Shown here piece by piece: positions 5,940-47,740 of a stretch of 64,000 nucleotides of DNA (the stretch's first letter is position 1; the number at the start of each line of letters is the position of its first letter). Location of the stretch: contig OZ024936.1 of NCBI GenBank assembly GCA_964017235.1, positions 15,166,496-15,230,495 of the forward strand, written 5' to 3'. The notes below the pieces were generated by a model, which saw nothing but the letters and a program-made list of their open reading frames with translations, was not told the DNA's origin and ran no database searches. Source of the stretch: Sabellastarte sp. h YS-2021 (taxonomy: Eukaryota; Annelida; Polychaeta; Sabellida; Sabellidae). Both the position numbers and the translations under genes were made by a program.

Positions 5940-8900
5940 TCATATACCCAAGGCAGCGGCAATATTTTGAAGCTGCTCGAGCAGAGCTGCTATTCGACTC
6001 CTTAATTCAGCAAGAGTAGCAATTATATCTGTTATAGTTGGAGCAAGAGTAGAAGTAGGTGCTGCAGAAGTGGTTTTTGTAGTTGTAGTAGGTGCTGCCT
6101 GGGTTGTTGTTGTGGTTGGTGTAGCAGTGGTTGTTGTGGTAGGAGCTGCAGTGGATGTTGTTGTGGTTGGTGTAGCAGTGTTTGTTGTGATAGGAGCTGC
6201 AGTGGTTGTTGTTGTGGTTGGTGTAGCAGTGGTTGTTGTGGAAGGAGCTGCAGTGGTTGTTGTAGTAGGTGCTGGGGTACTTGTTGTTGTGGTTGGTGTA
6301 GCAGTGGTTGTTGTGGTAGGAGCTGCACTAGTTGTAGTAAGTGCTGGAATGGTTGTTGTTGTGGTTGGTGTAGCAGTGGTTGTTGTGGTAGGAGCTGCAG
6401 TGGTTGTTGTAGAAGGTGATGGAGTGGTTGTTGTTGTGGTTGTTGTAGCAGTGGTTGTTGTGGTAGGAACTGCCGTGGTTGTTGTAGAAGGTGATGGAGT
6501 GGTTGTTGTTGTGGTTGGCGTAGCAGTGGTTGTTGTGGTAGGAACTGCCGTGGTTGTTGTAGTAGGATATGGGGTGGTTGCTGTTGTGGTGGGTGTAGCA
6601 GTGGTTGTTGTGGTAGGTGCTGGAGTGGTTGTTGTTGTGGTAGGAGCTGCAGTGGTTGTTGTAGTAGCTGCTAGAGTGGTTGTTGTTGTGGTTGGTATAG
6701 CAGTGGTTGTTGTGGTAGGAGATGCAGTGGTTGTTGTAGTAGCTGCTAGAGTGGTTGTTGTTGTGGTTGGTATAGCAGTGGCTGTTGTGGTAGGAGATGA
6801 AGTGGTTGTTGTAGTAGGTGCTGGAGTGGTTGTTGTAGTGGTTGGTGTGGCAGTGGTTGTTGTGGTAGGAGCTACAGTGGTTGCTGTAGTAGTTGCTGGA
6901 GTGGTTGTTGTAGTTTTTGGTGTGGCAGTGGTTGTTGTAGTAGGTGCTGGAGTGGTTGTTGTAGTTGTTGGTGTAGCAATGGTTGTTGTGGTAGGAGCTG
7001 CAGTGGTTGTTGTAGAAGGTGATGGAGTGGTTGTTGTTGTGGTTGGTGTAGCAGTGGTTGTTGTGGTAGGAACTGCCGTGGTTGTTGTAGAAGGTGATGG
7101 AGTGGTTGTTGTTGTGGTTGGCGTAGCAGTGGTTGTTGTGGTAGGAACTGCCGTGGTTGTTGTAGTAGGTGCTGGGGTGGTTGCTGTTGTGGTGGGTGTA
7201 GCAGTGGTTGTTGTGGTAGGAGCTGCAGTGGTTGTTGTAGGTGCTGGGGTGGTTGTTGTTGTGGTTGGTGTAGCAGTGGTTGTTGTAGTAGCTGCTAGAG
7301 TGGTTGTTGTTGTGGTTGGTATAGCAGTGGTTGTTGTGGTAGGAGATGCAGTGGTTGTTGTAGTAGCTGCTAGAGTGGTTGTTGTTGTGGTTGGTATAGC
7401 AGTGGCTGTTGTGGTAGGAGATGAAGTGGTTGTTGTAGTAGGTGCTGGAGTGGTTGTTGTAGTGGTTGGTGTGGCAGTGGTTGTTGTGGTAGGAGCTGCA
7501 GTGGTTGCTGTAGTAGTTGCTGGAGTGGTTGTTGTAGTTGTTGGTGTGGCAGTGGTTGTTGTAGTAGGTGCTGGAGTGGTTGTTGTAGTTGTTGGTGTTG
7601 CAGTGGTTGTGGTAGGAGCTGCAGTGGTTGCTGTAGTAGGTGCTGGAGTGGTTGTTGTTGTGGTTGGAGTGGCAGTGGTTGTTGTGGTTGGAGCTGCAGT
7701 GGTTGCTGTAGTAGTTGCTGGAGTGGTTGTTGTAGTTGTTGGTGTGGCAGTGGTTGTTGTAGTAGCTGCTGGAGTGGTTGTTGTAGTTGTTGGTGTTGCA
7801 GTGGTTGTGGTAGGAGCTGCAGTGGTTGCTGTAGTAGGTGCTGGAGTGGTTGTTGTTGTGGTTGGTGCAGCAGTGATTGTTGTGGTAGGAGCTGCAGTGC
7901 TTGTTGTAGTAGGCGCTGGAGTGGTTGTTGTTGTGGTTGGTGTGGCAGTGGTTGTTGTGGTAGGAGCTGCAGTGGTTGTTGTAGTAGGTGCTGGAGTGGT
8001 TGTTGTAGTTGTTGGTGTTGCAGTGGTTGTGGTAGGAGCTGCAGTGGTTGCTGTAGTAGGTGCTGGAGTGGTTGTTGTTGTGGTTGGTGCAGCAGTGGTT
8101 GTTGTGGTAGGAGCTGCAGTGGTTGTTGTAGTAGGCGCTGGAGTGGTTGTTGTTGTGGTTGGTGTGGCAGTGGTTGTTGTGGTAGGAGCGGCAGTGGTTG
8201 TTGTAGTAGGCATTGGAGTGGTTGTTTTTGTGGTTGGTGCAGCAGTGGTTGTTGTGGTAGGACCTGCAGTGGTTGTTGTAGTAGGTGTTGGAGTGGTTGT
8301 TGTTGTGGCTGGTGTGGCAGTGGTTGTTGTGGCAGTGGTTGTTGTGGTAGGAGCGGCAGTGGTCGTTGTAGTAGACGCTGGAGTGGTTGTTGTTGTGGTT
8401 GGTGTAGCAGTGGTTGTTGTGGTAGGAGCTGCAGTGGTTGTTGTGGTAGGTGCTGGAGTGGTTGTTATGGCAGTGGTTGTTGTGGTAGGAGCTGCAGTGG
8501 TTGTTGTAGTAGGTGCTGAAGTGGTTGTTGTAGTGGTTGGTGTGGCAGTGGTTGTTGTGGTAGGAGCTGCAATGGTTGCTGTAGTAGGTACTGGAGTGGT
8601 TGTTGTTGTGGTTGGAGTGGCAGTGGTTGTTGTGGTTGGAGCCTCAGTGGTTGCTGTAGTAGGTGCTGGAGTGGTTGTTGTAGTTGTTGGTGTGGCAGTG
8701 GTTCTTGTGGTAGGAGCTGCAGTGGTTGGTGTAGTAGGTGCTGGAGTTGTTGTTGTAGTTGTTGGTGTGGCAGTGGTTGTTGTGGTAGCAGCTGCAGTGG
8801 TTGCTGAAGTAGGTGCAGGAGTGGTTGTTGTTGTGGTTAGTGTGGCAGTGGTTGTTGTGGTAGGAGCGGCAGTGGTTGTTGTAGTAGGCGCTGGAGTGGT

Positions 8901-11900
8901 TGTTGTTGTGGTTGGTGTAGCAGTGGTTGTTGTAGTAGGAGCTGCAGTGGTTGTTGTAGTAGGTGCTGGAGTGGTTGTTGTGGTAGGGGCTGCAGTGGTT
9001 GCTGTAGTAGGTGCTGGTGTGGTTGTTGTTGTGGTTGGTGTGGCAGTGGTTGTTGTGGTAGGAGCTGCAGTGGTTGTTGTAGTAGGTGCTGGAGTGGTTG
9101 TTGTTGTGGCAGTGGTTGTTGTGGTAGGAGCGGCAGTGGTCGTTGTTGTTGGCGCTGGAGTGGTTGTTGTTGTGGTTGGTGTAGCAGTGGTTGTTGTGGT
9201 AGGAGCTGCAGTGATTGTTGTAGTAGGTGCTGGAGTGGTTGTTGCTATAGGGGCTGCAGTGGTTGTTATAGTAGGTGCTGAAGTGGTTGTTGTAGTTAAT
9301 GTTGTCGCAGTGGTTGTTGTGGTAGGAGCTGCAGTGGTTGTTGTGGTAGGAGTTGGAGTGGTTGTTGTTGTGGTTGGTGTAGCAGTGGTTGTTGTGGTAG
9401 AAGCTGCAGTGGTTGTTGTGGTAGGAGTTGGAGTGGTTGTTGTTGTGGTTGGTGTAGCAGTGGTTGTTGTGGTAGGAGCTGCAGTGGTTGTTGTGGTAGG
9501 AGTTGGAGTGGTTGTTGTTGTGGTTGGTGTAGCAGTGGTTGTTGTGGTAGGAGCTGCAGTGGTTGTTGTAGTAGGTGCTGGAGTGGTTGTTGTTGTGGTT
9601 GGTGTGACAGTGGTTGTTGTGGTAGGAGATGCAGTGGTTGTTGTGGTAGGAGTTGGAGTGGTTGTTGTTGTGGTTGGTGTAGCAGTGGTGGTTGTGGTAG
9701 GAGCTGCAGTGGTTGTTGTAGTAGGTGCTGGAGTTGTTGTTGTAGTTGTTGGTGTGGCAGTGGTTGTTGTGGTAGCAGCTGCAGTGGATGCTGAAGTAGG
9801 TGCTGGAGTGGTTGTTGTTGTGGTTGGTGCAGCAGTGATTGTTGTGGTAGGAGCTGCAGTGCTTGTTGTAGTAGGCGCTGGAGTGGTTGTTGTTGTGGTT
9901 GGTGTGGCAGTGGTTGTTGTGGTAGGAGCTGCAGTGGTTGTTGTAGTAGGTGCTGGAGTGGTTGTTGTAGTTGTTGGTGTTGCAGTGGTTGTGGTAGGAG
10001 CTGCAGTGGTTGCTGTAGTAGGTGCTGGAGTGGTTGTTGTTGTGGTTGGTGCAGCAGTGGTTGTTGTGGTAGGAGCTGCAGTGGTTGTTGTAGTAGGCGC
10101 TGGAGTGGTTGTTGTTGTGGTTGGTGTGGCAGTGGTTGTTGTGGTAGGAGCGGCAGTGGTTGTTGTAGTAGGCATTGGAGTGGTTGTTTTTGTGGTTGGT
10201 GCAGCAGTGGTTGTTGTGGTAGGACCTGCAGTGGTTGTTGTAGTAGGTGTTGGAGTGGTTGTTGTTGTGGCTGGTGTGGCAGTGGTTGTTGTGGCAGTGG
10301 TTGTTGTGGTAGGAGCGGCAGTGGTCGTTGTAGTAGACGCTGGAGTGGTTGTTGTTGTGGTTGGTGTAGCAGTGGTTGTTGTGGTAGGAGCTGCAGTGGT
10401 TGTTGTGGTAGGTGCTGGAGTGGTTGTTATGGCAGTGGTTGTTGTGGTAGGAGCTGCAGTGGTTGTTGTAGTAGGTGCTGAAGTGGTTGTTGTAGTGGTT
10501 GGTGTGGCAGTGGTTGTTGTGGTAGGAGCTGCAATGGTTGCTGTAGTAGGTACTGGAGTGGTTGTTGTTGTGGTTGGAGTGGCAGTGGTTGTTGTGGTTG
10601 GAGCCTCAGTGGTTGCTGTAGTAGGTGCTGGAGTGGTTGTTGTAGTTGTTGGTGTGGCAGTGGTTCTTGTGGTAGGAGCTGCAGTGGTTGGTGTAGTAGG
10701 TGCTGGAGTTGTTGTTGTAGTTGTTGGTGTGGCAGTGGTTGTTGTGGTAGCAGCTGCAGTGGTTGCTGAAGTAGGTGCAGGAGTGGTTGTTGTTGTGGTT
10801 AGTGTGGCAGTGGTTGTTGTGGTAGGAGCGGCAGTGGTTGTTGTAGTAGGCGCTGGAGTGGTTGTTGTTGTGGTTGGTGTAGCAGTGGTTGTTGTAGTAG
10901 GAGCTGCAGTGGTTGTTGTAGTAGGTGCTGGAGTGGTTGTTGTGGTAGGGGCTGCAGTGGTTGCTGTAGTAGGTGCTGGTGTGGTTGTTGTTGTGGTTGG
11001 TGTGGCAGTGGTTGTTGTGGTAGGAGCTGCAGTGGTTGTTGTAGTAGGTGCTGGAGTGGTTGTTGTTGTGGCAGTGGTTGTTGTGGTAGGAGCGGCAGTG
11101 GTCGTTGTTGTTGGCGCTGGAGTGGTTGTTGTTGTGGTTGGTGTAGCAGTGGTTGTTGTGGTAGGAGCTGCAGTGATTGTTGTAGTAGGTGCTGGAGTGG
11201 TTGTTGCTATAGGGGCTGCAGTGGTTGTTATAGTAGGTGCTGAAGTGGTTGTTGTAGTTAATGTTGTCGCAGTGGTTGTTGTGGTAGGAGCTGCAGTGGT
11301 TGTTGTGGTAGGAGTTGGAGTGGTTGTTGTTGTGGTTGGTGTAGCAGTGGTTGTTGTGGTAGAAGCTGCAGTGGTTGTTGTGGTAGGAGTTGGAGTGGTT
11401 GTTGTTGTGGTTGGTGTAGCAGTGGTTGTTGTGGTAGGAGCTGCAGTGGTTGTTGTGGTAGGAGTTGGAGTGGTTGTTGTTGTGGTTGGTGTAGCAGTGG
11501 TTGTTGTGGTAGGAGCTGCAGTGGTTGTTGTAGTAGGTGCTGGAGTGGTTGTTGTTGTGGTTGGTGTGACAGTGGTTGTTGTGGTAGGAGATGCAGTGGT
11601 TGTTGTGGTAGGAGTTGGAGTGGTTGTTGTTGTGGTTGGTGTAGCAGTGGTGGTTGTGGTAGGAGCTGCAGTGGTTGTTGTAGTAGGTGCTGGAGTTGTT
11701 GTTGTAGTTGTTGGTGTGGCAGTGGTTGTTGTGGTAGCAGCTGCAGTGGATGCTGAAGTAGGTGCTGGAGTGGTTGTTGTTGTGGTTAGTGTGGCAGTGG
11801 TTGTTGTGGTAGGAGCGGCAGTGGTCGTTGTAGTAGGCGCTGGAGTGGTTGTTGTTGTGGTTGGTGTAGCAGTGGTTGTTGTGGTAGGAGCTGCAGTGGT

Positions 11901-13552
11901 TGTTGTGGTAGGAGTTTGAGTGGTTGTTGTTGTGGTTGGTGTAGCAGTGGTGGTTGTGGTAGGAGCTGCGGTGGTTGTTGTGGTAGAAGTTGGAGTGGTT
12001 GTTGATGTGGTTGTCGTAGCAGTGGTTGTTGTGGTAGGAGCTGCGGTGGTTGTTGTGGTAGGAGTTGGAGTGGTTGTTGTTGTGGTTGGTGTAGCAGTGG
12101 TTGTTGTGGTAGGAGCTGCAGTGGTTGTTGTGGTAGGAGCTGCAGTGGTTGTTGTTGTGGTTGGTGTAGCAGTGGTTGTTGTGGTAGGAGCTGCAGTGGT
12201 TGTTGTAGTAGGTGCTGGAGTGGTTGTTGTTGTGGTTGGTGTGGCAGTGGTTGTTGTGGTAGGAGTTGGAGTGGTTGTTGTTGTGGTTGGTGTAGCAGTG
12301 GTGGTTGTGGTAGGAGCTGCAGTGGTTGTTGTAGTAGGTGCTGGAGTTGTTGTTGTAGTTGTTGGTGTGGCAGTGGTTGTTGTGGTAGCAGCTGCAGTGG
12401 TTGCTGAAGTAGGTGCAGGAGTGGTTGTTGTTGTGGTTAGTGTGGCAGTGGTTGTTGTGGTAGGAGCGGCAGTGGTCGTTGTAGTAGGCGCTGGAGTGGT
12501 TGTTGTTGTGGTTGGTGTAGCAGTGGTTTTTGTAGTAGCAGCTGCAGTGGTTGTTGTAGTAGGTGCTGGAGTGGTTGTTGTGGTAGGGGCTGCAGTTGTT
12601 GCTGTAGTAGGTGCTGGAGTGGTTGTTGTTGTGGTTGGTGTGGCAGTGGTTGTTGTGGTAGGAGCTGCAGTGGTTGTTGTAGTAGGTGCTGGAGTGGTTG
12701 TTGTTGTGGCAGTGGTTGTTGTGGTAGGAGCGGCAGTGGTCGTTGTAGTAGGCGCTGGAGTGGTTGTTGTTGTGGTTGGTGTAGCAGTGGTTGTTGTGGT
12801 AGGAGCTGCAGTGGTTGTTGTAGTAGGTGATGGAGTGGTTGTGGTTGGTGTGGCAGTGGTTGTTGTGGTAGGAGCGGCAGTGGTCGTTGTAGTAGGTGCT
12901 GGAGTGGTTGTTGTTGTGGTTGGTGTAGCAGTGGTGGTTGTGGTAGGAGCTGCAGTGGTTGTTGTAGTAGGTGATGGAGTGGTTGTTGTTGTGGTTGGTG
13001 TGGCAGTGGTTGTTGTGGTAGGAGCTGCAGTGGTTGTTGTGGTAGGAGTTGGAGTGGTTGTTGATGTGGTTGGTGTAGCAGTGGTTGTTGTGGTAGGAGC
13101 TGCAGTGGTTGTTGTGGTAGGAGTTGGAGTGGTTGTTGTTGTGGTTGGTGTAGCAGTGGTTGTTGTGGTAGGAGCTGAAGTGGTTGTTGTGGTAGGAGTT
13201 GGAGTGGTTGTTGATGTGGTTGGTGTAGCAGTGGTTGTTGTGGTAGGAGCTGCGGTGGTTGTTGTGGTAGGAGTTGGAGTGGTTGTTGTTGTGGTTGGTG
13301 TAGCAGTGGTTGTTGTGGTAGGAGCTGAAGTGGTTGTTGTGGTAGGAGTTGGAGTGGTTGTTGTTGTGGTTGGCGTAGCAGTGGTTGTTGTGGTAGGAGC
13401 TGCAGTGGTTGTTGTGGTAGGAGTTGGAGTGGTTGTTGTTGTGGTTGGCGTAGCAGTGGTTGTTGTGGTAGGAGCTGCAGTGGTTGTTGTTGTAGTAGGC
13501 GCTGGAGTGGTTGTTGTTGTGGTTGGTGTGGCAGTGGTTGTTGTTGTAGGAG
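5940..13552 (-). CDS. Gene A coding exon 5: giant Thr-rich mucin exon with helical tail
   Basis: The acceptor is ATCATTGCAG at 13553 and the exon is open for 7613 nt to the TGA at 5940-5942. The basic unit is 25 residues, made of modules like APTTTTTA, TPTTTTTTP and APTTTTTA (75 bp), with point variants. A 1962-bp block within the exon is present twice. After the repeats come TITDIIATLAELRSRIAALL and EQLQNIAAALGI, the amphipathic tail. The opposite strand is also open for long stretches because ACN codons read as Val/Gly/Ala on the other strand. Confidence 0.87.
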
Positions 13553-16500
13553 CTGCAATGATTAGAAAGAGATACTTTATACGTTTTTTGATGTCCAAAT
13601 ATCTCTGATGAACATGTTTACTTTGGGATTGTTTATCTTTTTTTCCCTTTGTTCAGAATTTTTTGAAAATCCAAGGTCAACAACTATTTCATTCAGAAGA
13701 TAGATTGAATTAGTAAGATATAAATCGGTTCCCATTTTGAAGAAAAGAACATGTCTGTCCAGTGTTGAGTCTGCCTTAAAATATTCTGGACAGGTTTGTT
13801 CTCCAGTAATATTCCCTTTCTAATTTTGTATCTTCTAAAACAAACTGATATGAACGTTCAGGCTGTATTTGTGGAGGAATGAAAATCTAAATATTTGACG
13901 AGTTCATTTTTTTATATTCGGAAAGTATGTTATGACTATTATTGATATACAAGATAAATATAAAATCTTTTGATGATGTCACTTGTGAGACATCAACCTA
14001 CAACAGAACAATAAACTACTTTCTTGGAGTTCACAAATATGTATATTCAGCAGCTATTATAGATGACATAGAATGTCTCACCTTTAGATTTAGACGATTT
14101 ACTTTGATGTTACATGTTTATGGAATATAAATATCAATATAAAAATATCTATATTTTCAGTGGGACTAATGGGATCTTCGAGGAAAATAACTAGAGTAGT
14201 CAAGTCAAAAATATTCTAGAACAAGGAATAACTCAGAAATATTTATTCAATTAGTAGAAAAATGGATATAGATAACCTATAACTAATTGGCAGAGAAACT
14301 GAATCGTAACAAGAGGTTGAAACCAAAACAATGCTTGGGAAAATTAAGCTGTTTACAGTGACTTTGAAACATTGTCATATGTAAACATTTTTTTCCCAAA
14401 ATATAAAGCTCATTATTGATTTAATGTTAGTCACTAATCCTTGCCACTGTGTATTAAACCATTGTATTTAGTTCTGAAATTGACATAACTACTTATATGC
14501 CAAAATATCTGAATCATGATGAATAACTGTGTGTTATCACTTCAATTAACAGAATAGAAAATTAATTGCATTTTCCATGCCTCTATTCTGTCTATAATGA
14601 TGCTAGAAAGCACTCATACAGCACAAACCTCCGCCAGGGAGACTTTCTGAAAATCTGGGATTCATTTATGTCCAGAATCAACCAGTTAATAACTTCTTCT
14701 TTTGGCAAGTCCCTACGTTTATCTGTTTGTCCTCAGTGTTTTCAGTAACTCCAACAGAAGCAAACAGATCTCTCCAGACGGAAATGAAAACATAGATTTC
14801 CAGATGATAAAATATAAGAAGCATGCCAGTACATTACACCTACCTGGTGACTCTGTTGGTATCGATGGAGTACTTTTAAGTGGGATGGCTAAAAATAGCA
14901 ACAACATTTTCAATGAGCTTGTGTATTATTTGTACTACATGTGTAAATAAAAATAATCAAACAAAGAACTGCTTACAGTCATCTATTAAATTGTTGGGGG
15001 TAATATTTTAATATAATTGAACATAGAACAAGACTGCTGTGTATCCATTTGAATAAATTTTTGACACTTCTCTTTAAGCATATTATACAGAAGCTATCTA
15101 CTTTCTTAAGAAATAGTCATTTACATAAAAACAGAGAGTCTTGTTAAGAATTCCTAGGAACATAGAGAATGTGGATTTAAACCTAAGTACAGGTAGATTC
15201 TTAGCGGCTCCGATGACAACTAAAAATGGTGGTCCTCTGTCAAAGGCTTCTGTCACCCATGGCAGGTTAAAGAACCTCAAGGACTTTGATAAATGGTGAT
15301 CCTTGGGTCTCTGTATTTCAGTTAGACGGCTATACTTGTGCGAGATATCTGGGATATTAAATTCTCCCAGTGGATAATAAAACACAATGAGTGAACCGTA
15401 ATCACTTACACTGGATGATCTGCTGGTTACAGAAGTTAGTGTCACAGCAGTATCGGTTGTATGTCGGGGTGTTTTTGGTTGCTGGACACTTGTCTGAATC
15501 CATGCACATCTTGGTGACTGACTGAAATTGACCTCGCCTGTTTCTTATCCCATAGCTGTAACAACTCTGCCAGAATGATGAAAAACATTAGTGGCAAATG
15601 TGAAGTCTCTAACATATTGTATTGTCTCTGCTGGGACACGAAACACGGTGCCAAACTATTACACACAGACATAAACACAGGTCTACCTGTTTAACTAACT
15701 GAACAAATGGAAAATTCCCAGAAGTCCAGGGGCCGATTTCACTAAAGGACTTAAACTAAGTCCCTTTATTGGCTAAGTCTCGGACTTAAATCTAAGACTT
15801 TGGTCTTAGCTAGGTCTGGGACTTAAATGGATTTCACAAAGGGGTGACTTAGCTAAGTCCAAGCTTATAATATAACCACAGTTGTTTTCTGTGTCATATG
15901 ACCTTTTATATCCTTCATTTGATGCATTTTATCTAAGGATAAGTGCTGTTTTGAAATAGAAAACTGTGTTACATCATATAAACTTTCCAAAGACTACTTC
16001 AGTAAGGTGTTATAGCTGTATATTTTTACTTTATTTACAGCCATTTCAAAGTCTGAAGTGGAGAAAAGTTTATGGCGGCCATATTTAAGTCCTCTTTACA
16101 AAATTTAAGCCCACTACCTCCCAGGCTTAAAGTTAAGTCCACTGACTTAGCAATTTCATGGACTTAGCTGCTTTGTGAAATCCACTAAGTCTAAGACCAC
16201 CGACTTAAATGTAAGCCCAAAGTCTTAAATGTAAGTCTAAATCTTGGCTTAAGTCCCTTTGTGAAATCGGCCCCAGGTAGTACACAGCTAATATAGGTGA
16301 GGATTTATACCAGTCAGTACAGAGTTGGCCAACACCATTTTGATGCTCGTATCTACTATCCGCTACGTTACACGTCATTGATTTCTGTGTCTGACATAAT
16401 TTCATAAGGTTTTAACTCCACAAGGTTACGTTTTTCATGTGGCAAATGCTTTTGCCACGTAATTCTCTTCCCTTGTGGATTTATTAATTGTTGGAGCAAT

Positions 16501-19073
16501 AAAGTGTGTTCTACATATCAGAACAGAGTTCTTGAGAGACTGTAGATTATTTTTAGCAACTTCGTAAATTTTTGAAAAACCCAAGTGTACAACGACGAGC
16601 CTTTTTTCATCCCCTGTCATAAATGTTTTTGAAGTAATGACACAATCCTTCAAAGTTTTATGTACATGTGTTTTATAAGCTATTTAACTTGTGGGTTTAT
16701 TGGTTGTTGGGCTAATAGAGTTTGTAATATATATCAGTACCCAGTTCATTCAGTACTGTAGATGATTAAAACCAGTGTATTTATCTTTAGTGACTTGTAT
16801 AATTCCCAAATAATTTAAAAGAAATACTTGTAAAGAGCCTAGTTCAAACGCTGTTCGTGTACAAAATTCCACCCTAATGGTTTTCTCCCATATTGATTAA
16901 TTATATTGTGTGTTTTTGCAAGGAACGTTTTGAGAAATGTTGTTTGCAAACTCTCTAGTAAGATGACTTAAGTACTGTATTATGAAATGCTTAACACAAA
17001 TTAATATTAATAATGGTGAGTAATACTAAGAATACTAAATAGATAATAATAATGATAAAAATAATAATAATAATATATTAAATATTTGTTCTGTGAGATT
17101 CTGAGAAGAGATAATCATAATTTCATCATATCAGTATATATCATGCAATGCTGGGTGCTTTATATGGGTTGATAACACAATTCAAATTGTATCAAGTGCA
17201 ATTTGCATAAAATTGATCAACACATAGATTTCAAAGCCTTGCTCCTTGTATCACTACCTCTGATCAGTCAAATCTTTTTTCAATTTTTTTTCTAAAAGGC
17301 TGGACATACCAGTTGAAGTTACGTATTTATTTATTTGGGGTTTTACGTCACTTTCAACACTGTACAGGTCATACCACAATTGGTAGTTGGAAGGGCAGAG
17401 GAAACCAGTACATACAGTTGGTCAAGGTTCTGTACTGTAAACTGCTGACCAGCGGCAAGCAACTACCAGTTTTCCCACTTGAGGCCATGCTGGGAACCGA
17501 ACCCGGGCCTCAGAGGTGGGAAGCAAGAGTGTTACAACTCTGCCACCATGGCCTCTTGAAGTCATGTAAAGTAGTCTGGATATCTACCTGACCTTCCCCA
17601 CACGCTTCTATTCCATCATCTGGACAATACAGCTTGCCTCTAGTCAGACTGCAGCTGTAGCAATAGAGAGTCCCTAAAACACAAAAACAGAGTGAAGTTG
17701 TTTCTCCATTAAAGCCTCTATAATGGCTCATATGTATAAGATCATCGATTAAGGTGTTTATATTTAATAACAAGATAATCATAATCTGCTCACAAATTAA
17801 CTTTTTCCACGAGCAAAGCATCTGGGCAGATGATGCATGAAAGAAGGAAATGGGTCTGGCTGAATAGATAATCCACATAAATTTAAATATGATATGTTTA
17901 TTGTGTTTATTTGGGGTTTTACGTCGCTTTCAACACTGTACAGGTCATATCACGACGGGTAGTTGGAAGGGCAGAGGAAACCAGTACATATAGTTTGCTA
18001 GGGTTCTGTACTGTAAACTGCCAACCAACGGCAAGCAACTACCAGCTTTCCCACTTACGGCCATGACGGGGATCGAACTCCGGCCGCAGAGGTGGGAGGC
18101 GAGAGTGTTACCACTCTGCCACCGTGGCCCCTTAAATATGATATGACACAATCCAATAATATAGTTATATAACTAATATGATAGGCTCTTTGTCTTTTGA
18201 TCAAAGACATCGTAAGCTAATATAAAATAATTTGGGGTTTGCAGAATTCTGTATCTATGTCCCTTGTTGCATAGTCACAACCGGAGAGGCTTATCTACAT
18301 TTGTTTGTGATTCAATTGGCTTCATGTATACAGGTAGGATGGCAAATGGTGGGATTCCATGGGATGAGCATTGTGCTAGGATGCCTTCAATGTCATTTGA
18401 TGCGATTCCATACTTGAAATGTTTGAAGAACCTCTTATGATACTTCATGAGCTGTAGTAAAATATACAAGGTGAAGGGGAGGGCAAACATTGGACATAAG
18501 CCTTTGGACACTAAATATTGAAAGCATTCATAATCCTTCTGGTTAGGTTGGCAAATATATTGTTTATGACAAAGTGTGGGATTGTTGCATGCTTCCTTTA
18601 CAGTATCCAGAAAATGCAAAATTGTTTTCCTTTCTGGTATATCAAAGAGGTCGTGTTGTTAGTTGTCTCCCAAATGAACATGCCCAGCTAGCTAGCAGTG
18701 ATGTCTGTGAAGGCAATATAATTATTTCAAATTTACAAAACAGCTTCATATGTGTACATATAATGGAGAAAATATTAGAATTGTGTCTTATTATTTGTAA
18801 GATTTTTAGTGTCTTATGTCCAATATGATGTACAGCCAATGGACACACCCGTTGCACCTTGGTATTGAAATAAAACTGTCTCATAAGCATGTGTTGACAC
18901 AACTGTCTCATCTCTGTTCAAGTTAATATCAAATTACACTGTTACAGTAGAAATTATACTCTACAGTTCTAAATTACAGTTTATGTAAAAGACATCTTAC
19001 CTTGGACCTGTACCACACATAGTAAACCAGTGACAATCAAAACGAGCATGACAATTCCGTGATGACTGTTCAT
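5940..19073 (-). CDS. Gene A: secreted Ly6/uPAR domain-mucin fusion protein (five coding exons)
   Basis: Joining exons 19001-19073, 17588-17673, 15410-15566, 14844-14888 and 5940-13552 gives one open frame of 2657 aa, with GT/AG at every junction and phases 1, 0, 1, 1. Residues 1-24 are a signal peptide (MNSHHGIVMLVLIVTGLLCV, then VQVQ). Residues 26-105 hold ten cysteines (29, 32, 41, 49, 55, 74, 80, 93, 94, 99) in Ly6/uPAR order, ending in the diagnostic CCxxxxCN (CCDTNFCN). Residues 106-120 are a Pro/Thr/Ser linker. From residue 121 about 2500 residues are almost only Thr, Pro and Ala, as in O-glycosylated mucins. The last about 32 residues form an Ile/Leu-patterned amphipathic helix. There is no GPI signal or membrane segment, so the product is probably secreted. 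Paralogues B and C share all exon sizes except the last. The role as a mucus or matrix component is inferred. Exon calls are sequence-based, not transcript-confirmed. Confidence 0.85.
7831..11754 (-). repeat. Two near-identical 1962-bp tandem blocks inside the gene A mucin exon
   Basis: Block 7831-9792 is repeated at 9793-11754. Rare variants recur 1962 bp apart in both blocks: the 'gtgcttgttgtagtaggcgc' stretch at about 7897/9859, the 'cattggagtggttgttttt' stretch at about 8210/10172 and 'gttaatgttgtcgcag'. The unit is 654 codons, so the frame is kept. Fragments recur again near 12330-12800. Confidence 0.8.
13553..14843 (-). other. Gene A intron 4
   Basis: AT-rich sequence between exons 4 and 5. 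I see no exon or recognisable element in it. Confidence 0.6.
14844..14888 (-). CDS. Gene A coding exon 4: linker mini-exon
   Basis: This 45-nt exon lies between TTTTTAG and CCAG|GTAGGTG. It encodes SIPLKSTPSIPTESP, a Pro/Ser/Thr linker. It is supported by exons of the same size and phase in gene B (SIALQSTPTIPTETP) and gene C (SIALQSTPEIPTDAS). Confidence 0.75.
15410..15566 (-). CDS. Gene A coding exon 3: second half of the Ly6 domain
   Basis: This 157-nt exon lies between TCTGGCAG and CAGT|GTAAGTG. It encodes SCYSYGIRNRRGQFQSV...CMDSDKC...YCCDTNFCNQQIIQ with six cysteines and the CCxxxxCN terminus. It is nearly the same in genes B and C. Confidence 0.87.
15730..16273. mobile_element. MITE, PIF/Harbinger-like termini, 544 bp
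   Basis: Terminal inverted repeats GGGCCGATTTCAC and GTGAAATCGGCCC flank a palindromic subterminal zone of AAGTC/GACTTA repeats. The flanking target duplication is CAG (15727-15729 and 16274-16276). Gene B has the unoccupied site (CCAGGTAAC at about 29938). The GGGCC end and 3-bp duplication fit Harbinger-type elements. There is no coding capacity. Confidence 0.75.
17324..17555 (-). mobile_element. SINE family 1, antisense to the tRNA head, in gene A intron 2
   Basis: A tRNA-like head (GGCCATGGTGGCAGAGT...) is on the minus strand, followed by a body and a CGTAAAACCCCAAATAAATA tail. The flanking duplication is TTGAAGTTACGT/TTGAAGTCATGT. Gene B lacks the insertion at the equivalent place. Confidence 0.8.
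17588..17673 (-). CDS. Gene A coding exon 2: first half of the Ly6 domain
   Basis: This 86-nt exon lies between TTTTAG and CAG|GTAGAT. It encodes GTLYCYSCSL...LYCPDDGIEAC..GQ with four cysteines (C-x2-C, then C, then C). Its phase joins exon 1 and exon 3 in frame. An antisense SINE sits about 32 nt beyond the donor. Confidence 0.85.
17897..18131 (-). mobile_element. SINE family 1 in gene A intron 1
   Basis: Full-length copy of about 235 bp with a perfect 14-bp target duplication, TTAAATATGATATG, at 17883-17896 and 18132-18145. The A-box-like TGGCAGAGTGG and a B-box-like segment are readable on the minus strand. Confidence 0.85.
18275..18650 (-). other. Unrecognised open frame in gene A intron 1
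   Basis: An open stretch of about 125 codons runs on the minus strand from DLFDIPERK through ACNNPTLCHKQYICQPNQ to CSSHGIPPFAILPVYMKPI. It has several cysteines and a hydrophobic stretch (FALPFTLYILLQL). No family was recognised. It is absent from the same intron of gene B, so it could be a fragment of an inserted element or a retrocopy. It has no obvious start codon and may be chance. Confidence 0.2.
19001..19073 (-). CDS. Gene A coding exon 1: signal peptide
   Basis: The 73-nt coding part starts at the ATG (19073-19071) and encodes a short polar head, a Val/Leu/Ile core and VVQVQ. It ends CAAG|GTAAGATG, a good donor. A 5' extension to an acceptor (TTGCAG) at about 19117 would add some 44 nt of untranslated leader. 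Gene B has the same acceptor. Confidence 0.85.
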
Positions 19074-34513: not shown

Positions 34514-35254
34514 CTTAAAAAGAATAAAATCTCGACTTGTTTTCTCAGGATTGAGTATAGTTAACTTGCATGTTCAATGGCAAAAAATTCAACAGGGATT
34601 TTGACCTCACTTAAGTTATGCCAAGATGGTTTCACTGAGTCCAGGGGAGACCATGTGGCAGTAATCCACAAGGCAACTGGCCAGAAAAATTGTCACAATT
34701 ACAGTAGTGTCAGTTAGGAGAAATTTAAGTATTCTATGAAAATGTACCATCGTGGCAATCAATACACTGGGTCATAAAAACCAGTGATAAAATGGCAGAT
34801 ACAATGTATAGCACCCAGCCAACCGGGAATCAGATTTCCCATTGATGTTGTAATCAAACAACAGTCTCAGGGAAGTTGTTGTCAACCATAAAAACATCTT
34901 AGTGGTGCCAGAGGCTGGCTTTCAAGTTGGCTGAAGTTGACTCTTCTGTGTCTGACTGTGAAAATAATGTGGACTAATAAACTCAAAAACAGGCACAAGG
35001 GGGATGTTTGGTACAAGTTTGGATTTCAATCAATTTTCTTGTACCTTTGATCACAAGATCTGCAAGATTTGACTGTGAGATGTGAGGCATAACTGTAACA
35101 CACTCAAACTTAATTGACTGATTGATTTGTGTTTAAAGTATTGTGTACTTATATTCAGTGCAATATCACATTCTACAGCGTTAGTCAAAACATTTTTGCC
35201 CATCTCGTCTGTCCAACTACAGCTCAAACTCTTTTCCAACTGCCATTCTCATAT

Positions 35255-38460: not shown

Positions 38461-38469
38461 GCTTAGTAT

Positions 38470-38475: not shown

Positions 38476-38751
38476 TCACCCATAGGCTACATATATAATA
38501 ATCCACCCCCATTTAAACTATTCTAAAATTGGCCGAGCTATGGCCAACATAATGGTACCTTCTGTAATGTTATATAACTTCCCAATGTAATTTACACACA
38601 CTGCTGTTCAATTAAGAAAAAATTATCTCAGGAACCCTATAAATAATATAAAACATCATCCCACATAGACAAAGTCTTACATCAGCCTACTTCTATAAAG
38701 CTGCTTTATACCATGCTATTTACTTTTCATAGGGTCCATTGTTGCAGTGTC

Positions 38752-41700
38752 TTACAATAATCCCAAAGCAGCAAGAGTACTCTGAAGCTGATCAATGAGG
38801 GATTTTAATGCATTTATTTGATTTATTATGTCAGTAATAGTGGTATTTATATTAACTGTAGTCATGGCAGTAGTAGGACCTGCAGTGGCTGTAGTAGTTG
38901 CTTTTGTAGTAATGGTAGTTGCAACTGTAGTTGTTGTAGTAGGTGCTGCAGTGGTTGTCGTTGTGGTTGGCACTGGAGTGGTTGTTGTTGTGGTAGGTGT
39001 AGCAGTGGTTGTTGTTGTGGTAGGTGTGGCACTGGTTGTTGTTGTGGTAGGTGTGGCAGCAGTTGTTGATGTGGTAGGTGTGACAGTGGTTGTCGTAGTG
39101 GTAGGTGTTGCAGTGGTTGTTGTTGTGGTAGGTGTTGCAGTGGTTGTTGTAGTGGTAGGAGTTGCAGTGGTTGTTGCTGAAGTAGGTGTTGCAATGGTTG
39201 TTGTTGTGGTAGGTGTGGCAGTGGTTGTTGTAGTGGTAGGTGTGGGAGTGGTTGTTGTAGTGGTAGGTGTGGCAGTGGTTGTTGTTGTGGTAGGTGTGGC
39301 AGTGGTTGCTGTGGTAGGTGTGGGAGTGGATGTTGTTGTAGTAGGTGTAGCAGTGGTTGTTGATGTGGTAGGTGTGGCAGTGGTTGTTGTAGTGGTAGGT
39401 GAGGCAGTGGTTGTTGTTGTGGTAGGTGTGGCAGTGGTTGTTGTAGTGGTAGGTGAGGCACTGGTTGTTGTGGATGGTGTGGCATTGGTTGTTGTTGTGG
39501 TAGGTGTGGCAGTGATTGTTGTTGTGGTAGGTGTTGCAGTGGTTGTTGTTGTGGTAGGTGTGGCAGTGGATGTTGTAGTGGTAGGTGTGGCAGTGGTTGT
39601 TGTTGTGGTTGGTGTGGCAGTGGATATTGTAGAGGTAGGTGTGGCAGTGGTTGTTGTAGTGGTTGGTATGGCAGTGGTTGTTGTTGTGGTTGGTGTGGCA
39701 GTGGATGTTGTAGTGGTAGGTGTGGCAGTGGTTGTTGTTGTGGTTGGTGTGGGAGTGGTTGTTGTAGTGGTAGGTGTAGCAGTGGTTGTTGAAGTGGTAG
39801 GTGTGGCAGTGGTTGTTGTAGTGGTAGGTGTGGCAGTGGTTGTTGTTGTGGTAGGTGTGGCAGTGGTTGTTGTAGTGGTAGGTATGGTAGTGGTTGTTGT
39901 TGTGGTTGGTGTGGCAGTGGTTGTTGTAGTGGTAGGTGTGGTAGTGGTTGTTGTTGTGGTTGGTATGGCAGTGGTTGTTGTAGTGGTAGGTGTGGCAGAG
40001 GTTGTTGTTGTGGTTGGTGTGGCAGTGGTTGTTGTAGTGGTAGGTGTGGCAGTGGTTGTTGTTGTGGTTGGTGTGGCAGTGGTTGTTGTAGTGGTATGTG
40101 TGGCAGTGGTTGTTGTTGTGGTTGGTGTGGCAGTGGATGTTGTAGTGGTAGGTGTGGCAGTGGTTGTTGTAGTGGTAGGTGTGGCTGTGGATGTTGTAGT
40201 GGTAGGTGTGGCAGTGGTTGTTGTTGTGGTTGGTGTGGCAGTGGTTGTTGTAGTGGTAGGTGTAGCAGTGGTTGTTGTTGTGGTAGGTGTGGCAGTGGAT
40301 GTTGTAGTGGTAGGTGTAGCAGTGGTTGTTGTTGTGGTAGGTGTGGCAGTGGATGTTGTAGTGGTAGGTGTGGCAGTGGTTGTTGTTGTGGTAGGTGTTG
40401 CAGTGGTTGTTGTTGTGGTAGGTGTGGCAGTGGATGTTGTAGTGGTAGGTGTGGCAGTGGATGTTGTTGTGGTAGGTGTTGCAGTGGTTGTTGTAGTGGT
40501 AGGTGTGGCAGTGAATGTTGTAGTGGTAGGTGTGGCAGTGGATGTTGTTGTGGTAGGTGTGGCAGTGGATGTTGATGTGGTAGGTGTGGCAGTGGTTGTT
40601 GTAGTGGTAGGTGTAGAAGTGGTTGTTGTAGTGGTAGGTGTGGCAGTGGTTGTTGTAGTGGTAGGTGTGGCAGTGGTTGTTGTAGTGGCAGGTGTGGCAG
40701 TGGTTGTTGTAGTGGTAGGTGTGGCAGTGGTTGTTGTAGTGGTAGGTGTGGCAGTGGTTGTTGTAGTGGTAGGTGTGGCAGTGGTTGTTGTAGTGGTAGG
40801 TGTTGCAGTGGTTGTTGTAGTGGTAGGTGTGGCAGTGGTTGTTGTTGTGGTAGGTGTGGCAGTGGTTGTTGTTGTGGTAGGTGTGGCAATGGATGTTGTT
40901 GTGGTAGGTGTGGGAGTGGATGTTGTAGTGGTAGGTGTGGCAGTGGTTGTTGTAGTGGTAGGTGTGGGAGTGGTTGTTGTAGTGGTAGGTGTGGGAGTGG
41001 TTGTTGTAGTGGTAGGTGTAGCAGTGGTTGTTGTTGTGGTAGGTGTGGCAGTGGTTGTTGTAGTGGTAGGTGTGGCAGTGGTTGTTGTAGTGGTAGGTGT
41101 GGCAGTGGTTGTTGTAGTGGTAGGTGTGGCAGTGGTTGTTGTAGTGGTAGGTGTTGCAGTGGTTGTTGTAGTGGTAGGTGTAGCAGTGGTTGTTGTTGTG
41201 GTAGGTGTGGCAGTGGTTGTTGTAGTGGTAGGTGTGGCAGTGGTTGTTGTAGTGGTAGGTGTGGGAGTGGTTGTTGATGTGGTAGGTGTGGCAGTGGTTG
41301 TTGTAGTGGTAGGTGTAGCAGTGGTTGTTGTTGTGGTAGGTGTGGCAGTGGTTGTTGTAGTGGTAGGTGTGGCAGTGGTTGTTGTAGTGGTAGGTGTGGC
41401 AGTGGTTGTTGTAGTGGTAGGTGTGGCAGTGGTTGTTGTAGTGGTAGGTGTTGCAGTGGTTGTTGTAGTGGTAGGTGTGGCAGTGGTTGTTGTAGTGGTA
41501 GGTGTGGCAGTGGTTGTTGTTGTGGTAGGTGTGGCAGTGGATGTTGTTGTGGTAGGTGTGGGAGTGGATGTTGTAGTGGTAGGTGTGGCAGTGGTTGTTG
41601 ATGTGTTAGGTATTTCAGTGGTTGTGGTGGTGGGCGTGGCAGTGGTTGTCGTAGAAAGGAATGCCAAAATTTTTTGTGCTAGTAATTCCAATTCTGCCAT

Positions 41701-41969
41701 CTGTTGAAGAATTTGCGCCAGCTGATTGTTTAGTATATCTATTAGGCTCTGACTAGTTGTTGCTGGCTGATTACTGGTAGTTGTGGTTATTTCTGCAGCT
41801 GTTGTTGTAGTAGCTGCTGTTGCTGTTGTAGTGGTTGTACCTGCAGCTGTTGTTGTTGTCTCTACTCCTGGAGTTGTGCTAGCAGTTTCTGTTCTTGGAG
41901 CAGTAGTGTCTGTTCCTGCAGCTGTTGTTGTGGACACAGGTGCAGTTGTTGGACCATATGGTGAAGCAG
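38752..41969 (-). CDS. Gene C coding exon 5: helix, 9-residue mucin repeats and helical tail
   Basis: The acceptor is TTTAAACAG. The exon is 3218 nt, open to TAA at 38752-38754. The first about 220 nt are non-repetitive; 41656-41748 encode the Leu/Ile-rich helix. About 39000-41650 is a 27-bp tandem array. The tail is VNINTTITDIINQINALKSL and IDQLQSTLAALGLL. Confidence 0.87.
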
Positions 41970-44900
41970 CTGTTTAAAGTATTTACAGAATATCTTTAAA
42001 AATGAAATAAAATTGAATGCAGGATTGTTTTCTCACTCAGATAAAATATTTTCATCTTCTATCAGTTTGATACACTACCATGTTCATGTCTGGAATTAAT
42101 TTTTTTTGTCACGATAATTGTTTCAATTGTACTGTGGTTAAATATGTTACTGATCTATATATTTTAAATGGGCATCAATTTTGATCAATTATCTGTAGTA
42201 ATCAAATGCTTTTTGTCATCAACCAAGTACACTTAGTAATATGTCTCATAAAATATAATAAAATCCATTTTAAACACAAATATTACACTTTCAGAAGCAT
42301 GAATAAAGCTGCTTCATTATAACAATATCGGAACAAAATTTATAACAATACACTTATGTAACCAGTCGGTGGCCATAGAAATTTCATACTTACTGATTAT
42401 TACCTCCACTGTGGACGAAGTTTTTGAGTGTATTTATCAAAGTGATTAAATTTTCGGAGAACAGTGTCCTGATTTTACTCTGAACCCCCCCCCCCCCCCA
42501 AAAAAAAAAAAAAAAATTCCTGAATTTCAAATTTTTTTTTTCAATTTTCTCTTGTGACTTTCGTTATGGTTAAGCTATCTGAATATGTGAGTGTTAAAGT
42601 AAAATAACAGTATTCAGGTAAAATTATAATACGGGCGTTTTCAATTGCCTTGGTGGAGATCTATGCTTTACAGGTGCTTTCTATTTCTACATGTTTTTCT
42701 TGCAAGCAGTATTTTATACAAGGAACAAAGCAGACATAATCACAATTGTTTGTGATGTGAAAACAGACTCAATAACTAGAGTTAATAACTAGAATAAAAG
42801 TGTTAGCAAGCATGTCTTAGCAGAAAATTAATATTAAAAAGAAATAAAATTGATAAAGATTGAAACTAAAATAATGCATTAAAATTAACTGATTTTAACG
42901 TCAACCAACAAAAAGTAAATGCAGTAGAAGTAGTGCAGTAGCGAGTGTGTTCAACAACATAGTTAACAAATTATCCTGAAATATAACTTCTCCCTGTAAG
43001 TAGAGAAGAGGAACTTCCTTCTGAAATACTGGACATAACAAATGTTGTAAATAATGAATTATTGTTATCAAACAGAAGACATGTTATTCAGAGACCACAT
43101 TCACAAAATATCTCAATTCTGAGCTATATTCTCAAGCACTGACGAACGTGTCTCAGTTTTATCTCAAACTTGATTTTTTTGTAACCAAATTTATACTCTT
43201 TTTGTCCATGCCGGAAATATTTTTGACAGTACTAGAAGCACATTGCAATTGCAATATCAAGGTGTGTTGAACTAAATCAAAACTACTACCGGCTACATCA
43301 TTAGCAGTACTTCAAGTAAGGATTTGGAAAACAAATATAAGACAAAAATACAGAGTTGAGGTTTTAGTCAGTATTCTGTCATGGTTTTTACATCATGACT
43401 ATTATGATAAATGAAACATATACCATCCTCCTTTTTGTTCTATATTTGAGACAAAACATAGTCTAAACTTGAGACTTTCTGTGAATGCCAGGACAGGCCT
43501 GCAATTTCAAATCTCAGAAAAAATCTCAGATTTGAGGAAAGCAACAATAATTCCAGACTTGAGATTCTGAAAAAAAACTAGACTGATTCAGGTATCCTGT
43601 TAAAATGTACTCTGAACCAAATCACCTGTAAAACATGTAATGCACATGCATGTATGATCAATAAATATGTGTAATATTATGAAGCAATTATAGTTATGTT
43701 TTGGCATTGTACAATAAATACAGTGTACAACTATCACATGCAAATAATAGTTATCAGTAGAAGACATATTCAAATATACAAAGTTCATTGGAAATATCAT
43801 GCACACACAATTGGGGTACATCCCAATTTCCAATTCATTTTATTATTAAATACAAGGCAGTTGATAGGGTGGTATGTGGATTTACAACCCAGATGATATT
43901 GACCTCTTTCTTGTTAATAGTTTTAAATATATTTTTTGGTGGATTTAATGACTAAAAATACACTTTGTATGACTTTTTAAGCATTTATTTTTCTCAGCAA
44001 ATCCTAATATGTATACATGTCATTACTATCTGTAAAGAAAGTTCTACTCACTGGATGCATCAGTGGGAATCTCTGGGGTACTCTGCAATGCTATGGCTGG
44101 AAAGATGAAACAGTCGGTGAAATACTGGAACATTTGTACAGCAGATCTGTGACTATTGTTACTAAATATGGTGGTGTGACTGATATTATATGAAGTTCTA
44201 CCAACTGAATTGGGTATAATTTGAGGAGTAAAAACGCACCTAAGGGTGTTATATTCAAGTTTTAAACATTTAATTATTATTTTTGGGTTTTTTTTTCAAT
44301 TCATACAAACCTCACTAATACTAATGTAAATGTTATGTGCAATTTGTTAATATGTAAATGGCAGCTAATGAAACTACAATAAAGCAAAAACATAGAAAGG
44401 GATGTTATTCGTGATTAACACATTTGTACAGTTGCAAAACTACCCCAGTGATCTACTTTTTTAAAATTTTATTACGAGAAAAGACAAAATATTATATCTT
44501 TCCTTTGATTGGCACAAAGTATGTTTTTTTATTTATTCCTTCCATTTTATTCATATGTTAAGCACAGGGAAACCATATTTACTGAGACTTCAAAACAGTT
44601 GTTTTACATATATACAATAGGGAACAGCAGTGGATATAAAACCAGCATTTTTAGATTTCTCAGCCACTGAATTTAAATGCAACAAAAAAAAACAAAGAGA
44701 GGCTCTGTAAATATACTTTTCTAATGATGCATATAACATGCTTGTATTTTACACAATTATTTAGATATATAAGACCAAAACCGGTACTAGTTTACACATT
44801 TGTAATTCTTATTATCCAGGGTAAGGGGGACCTTGGCTTAAGTATGCCTGGCGTTTATGTCCTCTGTTTTAGGTCAACTAAAACTCATGCTAAATAAAAA

Positions 44901-46798
44901 TAAGTGAATTTAAATCACTTACACTGTATAATCTGTTGGTTACAGAAGTTGGTGTCACAGCAGTACTGGTTGTACGTCGCTGTGTTTTTGGTCACTGGAC
45001 ACTTGTCTGAATCCATACAGCTCTTGGTGACCGACTGAAATTGACCTCGTCTGTTTCTTATCCCATAGCTGTAACAACTCTGCCAGAAAGATAAAAACAT
45101 AAATATAAGCTTGTGACAATTGTCAAGCGTCTAATAAACTGCATTGGCTTGGCTTCCCGATCTATTATACACAGAGACATAATCACAGCTCTATCTATTT
45201 AACTAACTGAATAAATGGGAAATCCTCAGAAGACAAGGTGGTAACAGGTAATATAGAAGACCGACTGATACTGACCTGTCCGGCTTCTTATACCATAGCT
45301 GTAATGACTCTGCAATTCATACATTATAAATGTTATCAGATTTGTAAATGCATAAATGCTAAATTTTGTCATGTTGTATTGCCCTTGGTTCTAATATTAA
45401 TGTTTTCTGTTGATATTTGCCTTTTATAATGGTTGCCAAGATAACTCTTTGGAATGATACATGCTTATTAAAACCCGTAAATGAAAAGGTTGTGTGAAAT
45501 ACCGCTAAGCTTTCTTTTATATATATACAATAACAAATGTTTTTAAAAGAAGTTGATGAATTAAATAATTGTAACTAAAATTGTAAAACATAAGACTAAT
45601 TCTTTCTTGCAAAGCATTATATGGTTGATATTTTAAAACAGTTTATCTTGGACACATTGAAAAAGATTTTGTATTTGAACAAATGCTTTATAAACGTTTT
45701 CTGTGCACTGTTTAAAAAGTATTCTATAGATAACGTATTTGTCTCTTTTCTACATATTTATTTATGAAAAAAGCAGTATATATTTTAAAAACATTTTAAA
45801 CCATTTTATGCACTGTTTGAAAAACATCCTTATCAATGACTTGTATGACTCTTTTGTATAGTACTTATTTACTTCTGATAAATTAGAAAAAATATTTTTC
45901 GACTTTGTAATACTCACAAAATGTTTAAAAGTAAAAGGTTGCTTGGAATCAGAAAAAAATATGATAACATTATCTTCTAGTCCTGGAATTAAAGTCAAAT
46001 ACTGTGCATGATGGAAAAGAAGTTGACTTTACCTGCCCTGATGCACAAGCTTCTATGTCATCGTTTTCACAGGTAAGCTTTCCTTGGCTTAAACTACAGC
46101 TGTAGCAATAGAGAGAGCCTGAAACAGAGCCAGCCAGTCAGTACAGAATGGTAGACTGCTGGGTATATAACAGGTAATGTCCTGGATGCCACATACAAAA
46201 AGTATATCTCATGAATGAAGATGACAATATTATAAGATTTTTTAGAACAGCATTGCATCTTTTATACAGATATTATGGTTCACAAGTATTTAATTACTGG
46301 TCATCCAAGTCATTTTGAAAAGTTTTAAAGATGCTCAACTTTTTAAGAATATATCGAGTGGTTCTTTTGCAAGAGGTCCGACCGCTCCAAGTACATTTGG
46401 TCAACCCATCGGTAAAGTTGGAATCAAAGATTAAAATAGAAGCATTTATGTACCTCACAATTAATATGATTCCTCAATTGCACTTAAGTCCAAAAAGGGA
46501 GAGTCTTAAACCAAGCAGAGGTCATTTCTCTCTCAAGCGCCCACCAGCGAAATTTGACCATGGAGACGGGTATGCCAGTTTGAACAGGCAGACCTTTAGT
46601 TGGCTCCTGAACGACAATATAGTCTGCTGTGATTGGACATTGAGTGACAAGCTGTTCCATTAAACTGATGTAGCTATGGGAAAACCACACCTGTCAATTG
46701 CCTTTTTGAATGAACAATCACTTACCCTGACTGCTGACTGTTGTAATGGAATGGAACACCACTGCAAACCATGTGATTAGAAATGTCAGTTTTTCCAT
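38752..46798 (-). CDS. Gene C: secreted Ly6/uPAR domain-mucin fusion protein with extra helix
   Basis: Exons 46726-46798, 46033-46118, 44923-45079, 44052-44096 and 38752-41969 join in frame (phases 1, 0, 1, 1) to give 1192 aa. The signal peptide (MEKLTFLITWFAVVFHSITT) is unlike those of A and B. The Ly6 domain has ten cysteines: YCYSC, LTC, AC, SC, SC, KC, CC, FCN. Residues 121-194 are Thr/Ala-rich and non-repetitive. Residues 195-225 are a Leu/Ile/Gln-rich helix (SLIDILNNQLAQILQQMAEL and on). A mucin domain follows with a strict 9-residue period (TPTTTTTTA, 27 bp). The protein ends in a tail homologous to A and B (TITDIINQINALKSLIDQL...ALGLL). It is the most diverged of the three and probably secreted. 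Confidence 0.85.
38990..41650 (-). repeat. 27-bp tandem array coding TPTTTTTTA
   Basis: About 100 near-identical units. Variation is mainly Ser, Pro or Ile for Thr/Ala and synonymous changes in ACA/ACC/ACT. Confidence 0.85.
41970..44051 (-). other. Gene C intron 4
   Basis: AT-rich. A C-tract followed by an A-tract lies at about 42486-42516. A dispersed repeat of about 250 bp (about 42440-42700: AATATGTGAGTGTTAAAGT, then GGTAAAATTATAATACGGG) has a relative at 51770-52040. Confidence 0.5.
44052..44096 (-). CDS. Gene C coding exon 4: linker mini-exon
   Basis: 45 nt between TTTCCAG and TCCA|GTGAGTAG. It encodes SIALQSTPEIPTDAS. Confidence 0.77.
44923..45079 (-). CDS. Gene C coding exon 3: second half of the Ly6 domain
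   Basis: 157 nt between TCTGGCAG and CAGT|GTAAGTG. It encodes SCYSYGIRNRRGQFQSVTKS, then CMDSDKC and CCDTNFCNQQIIQ. Confidence 0.87.
45261..45314 (-). pseudogene. Relic of a duplicated Ly6 exon 3 in gene C intron 2
   Basis: On the + strand CCGACTGATACTGACCTG, then CTTCTTATACCATAGCTGTA and ATGACTCTGC, matches the 5' part of exon 3 (45031-45083) with scattered differences. The acceptor CAG is lost and the rest of the exon is missing. Confidence 0.6.
46033..46118 (-). CDS. Gene C coding exon 2: first half of the Ly6 domain
   Basis: 86 nt between GTTTCAG and GGGCAG|GTAAAG. It encodes GSLYCYSCSLSQGKLTCEND and DIEACASGQ. Confidence 0.85.
46726..46798 (-). CDS. Gene C coding exon 1: signal peptide
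   Basis: 73 nt from ATG to TCAGG|GTAAGTG. A TTTTCAG acceptor lies one base upstream of the ATG, so the untranslated leader is mostly on a separate exon (about 47687 upward). Confidence 0.82.
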
Positions 46799-47686: not shown

Positions 47687-47740
47687 CTTGCTTAACTGTT
47701 AAGTGAACGTTTTCTTTGCAGCTGAATAAGTTTTGGCTTC
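47687..47740 (-). promoter_or_regulatory. Probable gene C 5' untranslated exon and TATA box
   Basis: A donor GCAAG|GTAGGTAC ends the candidate leader exon. A TATA-like CTATATGC lies at about 47767-47774, some 30 nt upstream of the presumed start. The sequence is not conserved with genes A or B. Confidence 0.4.

Follow-up and report, generated by a model that had tools for sequence, protein, structure and literature searches.

A tandem cluster of four Sabellastarte genes predicted to encode mucin-like proteins with a Ly6/uPAR head

Introduction

Ly6/uPAR (LU) proteins are described as mainly secreted or GPI-anchored and as single-domain proteins (PMC7053344). In C4.4A (LYPD3), as reported there, two LU domains are combined with a mucin-type region rich in Ser, Thr, and Pro that carries 15 putative O-glycosylation sites, and with a GPI anchor (PMC7053344). 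Gel-forming mucins contain VWD, VWC, and cystine-knot domains, which are rich in cysteine (PMC9080433), and the mucins of Drosophila have been delimited by a Ser-plus-Thr content above 25%, many repeats, and a PTS region covering over a third of the length (PMC2515642). Among the matches listed in the open-access literature we found no giant mucin headed by an LU domain, although such proteins may have been described.

Here, we describe four genes of the polychaete Sabellastarte sp. that lie close together on one contig (C14). The window, that is, the whole stretch of 64,000 nt that was analyzed (C14:15166496-15230495), contains three of them, g1, g2, and g3, all on the minus strand, and the fourth, g4, lies just to its left. 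As in C4.4A/LYPD3, an LU fold is followed by a mucin-type region rich in Ser, Thr, and Pro (PMC7053344), but the cluster proteins differ in having one LU domain, a rod of up to ~4,600 residues, and a helical tail, with no GPI signal recognizable by eye. The first-pass annotation of this DNA had considered the architecture one not known by name. This is right in so far as C4.4A differs by its second LU domain and its GPI anchor, but an LU domain with an S/T/P mucin-type region is known from that same protein. Mucin-like LU proteins as such are known, and what appears to be new are the predicted giant, secreted, helix-tailed forms with a rodless sibling.

The likeness to single-domain secreted LU proteins lies in a signal peptide (by eye), ten cysteines, a CC-x4-CN motif, and a match to the Pfam family PF00021 above the cut-off in g1 and g4. 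Such proteins are usually small, whereas here the LU domain heads a giant protein in three of the four genes. With MUC2-type mucins the cluster proteins share predicted secretion and a giant tandem PTS rod, but the MUC2 type has cysteine-rich VWD, VWC, or cystine-knot domains, and the rods and tails of the cluster are free of cysteine. The composition, repeats, and PTS share that define the Drosophila set are present in g1, g3, and g4 and absent from g2, which has no repeat rod; the term "Ly6", on the other hand, does not occur in the main text of the paper describing that set (PMC2515642).

Results

Four genes with matching exons

In all three window genes, the first four exons measure 73, 86, 157, and 45 nt and start in phases 0, 1, 0, and 1; the last exon starts in phase 1. 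Every internal donor begins with GT and every acceptor ends with AG. The first-pass annotation had reported these lengths and matching phases for three genes, and both were borne out; g4 has the same exon lengths and phases. An agreement of exon size and phase in four of four genes is more than chance. We infer splicing of exons 1 to 5 as follows. In g1, exon 1 (19001-19073) encodes a signal peptide judged by eye, exon 2 (17588-17673) LU cysteines 1 to 4, exon 3 (15410-15566) LU cysteines 5 to 10, exon 4 (14844-14888) a linker, and exon 5 (5940-13552; 7,613 nt) the Thr/Pro/Ala rod, the C-terminal helix, and the stop. The first four exons of g2 lie at 31623-31695, 30318-30403, 29629-29785, and 28108-28152, and its exon 5 (27521-27651; 131 nt), which begins at a putative acceptor, encodes a short PT linker, the helix, and the stop, without a rod. 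Those of g3 lie at 46726-46798, 46033-46118, 44923-45079, and 44052-44096, and are followed by an exon 5 (38752-41969; 3,218 nt) with a linker, a first helix, a rod of 9-residue units, a second helix, and the stop. The whole of g4 (C14:15142693-15162392, minus strand), 4 to 24 kb left of the window, ends in an exon of 14,066 nt. The predicted proteins comprise 2,657 (g1), 163 (g2), 1,192 (g3), and 4,808 (g4) amino acids. One large mucin exon after exon 4, as initially proposed for every gene, is thus found in g1 and g3 of the window but not in g2, and the family, announced as one of three genes, is real but has at least four, with the rodless g2 among them.

We searched the whole genome (1.79 Gb, 647 contigs) with the exon 3 protein at E values up to 1 and obtained four matches, all on C14 and within 54 kb, which correspond to g1 to g4 (that of g4 is outside the window, 8.5 kb to its left). 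With the exon 2 protein and E values up to 10, the search listed the same four loci only. We read this count as a lower bound, at least four loci. A search of the genome with the PF00021 profile returned one weak match (E 0.6, on contig C5) and none of the four known genes, in which the domain is split between exons; having failed to recover them, this search cannot count further Ly6 genes. A polyadenylation-like site, GAAATAAAAT, is located 276 to 368 nt past the stop in each of the three window genes.

The LU head

A signal peptide, judged by eye, is encoded in all three window genes, as had been claimed. The ten head cysteines and the CC-x4-CN end, likewise noted at the outset for the window heads, are invariant in all four heads, and we take this cysteine pattern and the pairing that goes with it to be those of the LU fold. 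Against the curated PF00021 (UPAR_LY6) cut-off of 24.8 bits, g1 (26.0) and g4 (25.2) scored above and g3 (23.0) below, and the g2 head was not listed at E 1. For the related PF00087 (cut-off 21.2), g1 and g3 passed (21.5), and g2 (20.6) and g4 (20.7) just missed. The heads are 78 to 86% identical to that of g1; for g2 (78%) and g3 (84%), LU membership follows by homology. The g1 head alone, searched against the PDB, found chains of activin receptor type-2B (E 0.011 to 0.03), while a profile built from all four heads gave no hit among solved structures at E 0.1. A motif, RNRR, is kept in all four heads; by the order of LU cysteines, it would presumably sit in finger II.

The heads are under purifying selection, with synonymous changes above the neutral share. 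Over exons 2 to 4, dN/dS was 0.13 to 0.39 in all six gene pairs. We compared synonymous with all head changes by a binomial test in four of the six pairs; the synonymous share was 31 of 57 changes for g1-g3 (p 1e-8), 23 of 39 for g1-g4 (p 2e-7), and 14 of 37 for g1-g2 (p 0.014), and p was 2e-7 for g3-g4.

The threonine rod

The rod is absent from g2 and comprises ~1,000 residues in g3, ~2,500 in g1, and ~4,600 in g4. After the head, Thr and Ser make up 66 to 70% and Pro 11 to 14% of the g1, g3, and g4 proteins, with tandem units of 24 to 27 nt. The Pro/Thr/Ala rod described earlier is accordingly present in g1 and g3, but g2 is rodless. Such rods are presumably O-glycosylated, judging by their composition. 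Beyond the head, all four proteins are devoid of cysteine, in rods and tails alike, so the cysteine-rich VWD, VWC, and cystine-knot domains are absent from all four; a reading of the proteins as MUC2-type mucins was dropped on this ground.

The rod frame is free of stops in g1, g3, and g4. The other five frames contain 1 to 340 stops in g1, 4 to 168 in g3, and 4 to 748 in g4, and one antisense frame is nearly open (1, 4, and 4 stops, respectively). Because frames other than the coding one are also partly open in tandem repeats, the openness of the rod is weak evidence. When repeats one best lag apart were compared, codon position 2 varied least, with 105 changes in g1 against 452 at position 1 and 593 at position 3, 85 against 150 and 195 in g3, and 653 against 871 and 1,064 in g4, which indicates that the Thr/Pro/Ala/Ser class is kept. 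Single changes between neighboring repeats of g4 were nonsynonymous (875) more often than synonymous (637), as raw counts. The g1 rod contains an internal duplication of 1,962 nt (~7800-11910; 99.4% identical over ~2.1 kb), possibly a recent change of length that may be polymorphic as a VNTR, or else an artefact of the assembly.

C-terminal helices

The short C-terminal helix that had been proposed was confirmed in prediction. A terminal helix is common to g1 (5943-6038), g2, and g3 (38755-38844), with 68% (g2) and 41% (g3) identity to g1, and its heptad core of Ile and Leu is clearest in g1 and g3. AlphaFold2, run on the g1 tail with an alignment of g1 to g3, placed a helix at residues 13 to 41 of 43 (mean pLDDT 88; 29 of the 43 residues at 90 or above). 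The g4 tail, modeled alone, gave two helices, of which the first has a less clean heptad core; mean pLDDT ranged from 75.7 to 93.6 over five models, and 46 of 54 residues reached at least 90 (best model 93.6). In a search of the genome this tail matched itself only, as did, at E up to 10, the first helix of g3 (41650-41763), which lies between head and rod, was recognized by heptad analysis, and is absent from the first-pass annotation. Heptads and single-chain models together suggest that the tails would most likely oligomerize as coiled coils.

By eye, none of the four C-termini carries a GPI or membrane tail; all end instead in helices that include charged residues and glutamines. Translation continued past exon 3 or exon 4 likewise yielded nothing GPI-like by eye, with 41 partly hydrophobic residues added in g1 after exon 4. 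A GPI-anchored receptor, which we had entertained, was dropped for want of such a signal, by eye, in C-termini and read-through ends.

A rodless gene

The g2 head joins the helix almost directly, without a rod. At the position of the g1 acceptor AG, g2 has TG instead. The following AG, reached after an AG-free stretch of 87 nt, lies in frame and leads into a short PT linker and the helix; we infer this AG to be the acceptor of exon 5. On the g2 branch, neutrality was not rejected (p 0.15), and relaxed constraint is possible there. When the g2 helix was compared with that of g1, 8 of 15 changes were synonymous (p 0.018), in a pairwise comparison to which the g1 branch contributes as well.

Alternative readings

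One alternative takes the head exons for an ordinary gene of a small secreted Ly6 protein and the rod exons for an unrelated threonine-repeat gene, the fusion being an error of the gene model. Reading through past exon 3 would indeed end after 2, 4, 2, and 21 residues (g1, g2, g3, and g4) and yield small soluble Ly6 proteins, and threonine-repeat DNA occurs elsewhere in the genome, with at least 126 matching pieces (pieces, not genes; ~27 within the window's own genes) in a list that is incomplete in that the g4 rod is absent from it. We nevertheless give this reading a very small chance of being right. Head, exon 4, and then rod and/or helix follow one another in all four copies with unchanged order, strand, and phase, and the helix exon still comes after exon 4 in g2, where there is no rod. 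Moreover, in each of the four genes the frame of the last exon lacks an ATG from the preceding stop codon up to the acceptor, so that the last exons most likely rely on a start further upstream; after the head, methionine first occurs at residue 1,247 in g1, 211 in g3, and 146 in g4, and the last exon of g2 has no in-frame ATG at all. An LU head and a mucin rod in one secreted predicted protein are thus well supported by sequence, and the fusion postulated in the first-pass annotation gains good support from the recurrent exon order, the PF00021 matches, the composition of the rod, and the ATG-free frame. A separate doubt concerns g2, which may be a decaying copy and not a working rodless subunit. 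The loss of the AG at the g1 acceptor position would fit decay, as would a branch not significantly different from neutral, but all ten cysteines are retained without a stop codon, the next AG downstream keeps the frame, and the synonymous share of the helix changes given above speaks for constraint, albeit pairwise and with the g1 branch included. On balance, decay of g2 is a possibility that we take seriously and yet lean against.

Two further alternatives accept the fusion and differ in what the proteins would do. They might sit at the cell surface as a giant version of C4.4A, with a Ly6 head, a GPI anchor or membrane helix, and the rod as a stalk, as could be expected from LU proteins being mainly secreted or GPI-anchored and single-domain and from the LU domains, S/T/P mucin-type region, and GPI anchor of C4.4A (PMC7053344). 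The C-termini, however, are helices with charged and glutamine residues and by eye do not resemble a hydrophobic GPI tail, nor do the read-through ends after exons 3 and 4, even with the partly hydrophobic residues that g1 adds, and we give a surface stalk almost no credence. The proteins could also be lineage-specific matrix or adhesive components, as in a byssus, ligament, egg coat, or glue, with rods that carry load and heads that crosslink, and form no mucus gel. Tandem duplication and a changing rod length, as in the 1,962-nt duplication of g1, fit structural proteins too; the g3 rod has a helix on either side; and some PTS-repeat proteins of Drosophila have been proposed to serve yet uncharacterized assemblies during organ development (PMC2515642). 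A Thr-plus-Ser content of 66 to 70% with 11 to 14% Pro is, by contrast, the usual signature of a mucin, and while sequence does not separate a matrix from a mucus role, we consider the structural role unlikely.

Proposed function

We regard it as reasonably probable that the four genes form a tandem cluster for secreted mucin-like proteins that multimerize through coiled-coil tails and display LU heads. Each protein would be secreted with its signal peptide and consist of one LU three-finger head, a threonine-rich rod of variable length, and a C-terminal amphipathic helix. The helices would gather chains into coiled-coil bundles, a task assigned to the tails because no cysteine outside the head could link the chains; the sequence excludes disulfides outside the head, and interchain disulfides of the heads themselves may occur. 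Stiff O-glycosylated rods would hydrate and space the assembly, and the LU heads at the free ends may bind a partner, perhaps by way of the conserved RNRR in finger II. Such proteins would form part of mucus, of an egg coat, or of some other gel outside the cell, and a gel role, as proposed in the first-pass annotation, is plausible. Should these proteins exist, a giant mucin can have a three-finger domain as its head, and a mucin family may multimerize by helical tails and not by the cysteine-rich ends of vertebrate gel-forming mucins. The series of rods, from none to ~4,600 residues with the head almost unchanged, would then be a ready-made system for relating rod length to gel properties.

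A more specific version is distinctly improbable in our view and is offered as speculation. Here, the cluster would represent a disulfide-free class of gel-forming mucins, in which coiled-coil tails build stars of graded rods, the basic finger II of the heads binds acidic glycans of neighboring rods to form reversible crosslinks, and rodless g2 acts as a short subunit that sets the crosslink density.

History of the cluster

By dS, g1 and g2 are the closest pair (0.28), g1 and g4 follow (0.54), and g3 is the most distant (0.95 to 1.10). In exon 3, dS between g3 and g1 was 0.54, against 2.1 and 3.1 in exons 2 and 4, values that are saturated and rest on few sites. Nucleotide alignments between the genes, with matches inside the rods left out, gave, among the first 40 matches listed per pair, a block of 372 nt common to g2 and g3 (82%) that covers exon 3 and part of the preceding intron, and an alignable C-terminus and 3' flank of g1 and g2 (72.7% over 695 nt). 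A search with simple sequence masked revealed, within g3 and just upstream of the working exon 3, a partial exon 3 copy that has decayed (45259-45309, minus strand). The low dS to g1 in exon 3 only, the 82% block shared with g2, and the adjoining decayed exon make it look as though the g3 exon 3 block (44901-45309) was copied from a g1/g2-like gene, by gene conversion or exon replacement.

A repeated element occurs in introns and between genes (17217-18131, 28911-28953, and 34271-34561, and 9640-9850 of L019); by eye it is likely a tRNA-derived SINE.

Other loci

Other DNA resembling the threonine repeats was found at C14:83649145-83736872, C1:189761105-189765186, C3:166389760-166392614, C21:14243688-14267146, and C1:11586154-11646969. 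The rod at C14:83.69 Mb is long and open and is joined to a different segment, which has no Pfam match at E 1. In 4.6 kb beside each of two threonine-rod loci outside the cluster, tblastn gave no match at E 1 to the heads or tails of g1 to g3. Within the window, a frame at 53206-53493, after a purine-rich repeat, has a partial match to the MADF DNA-binding domain (PF10545), and a frame at 59686-60051 on the minus strand, part of a neighboring gene, matches the end of flavin-containing amine oxidases (PF01593).
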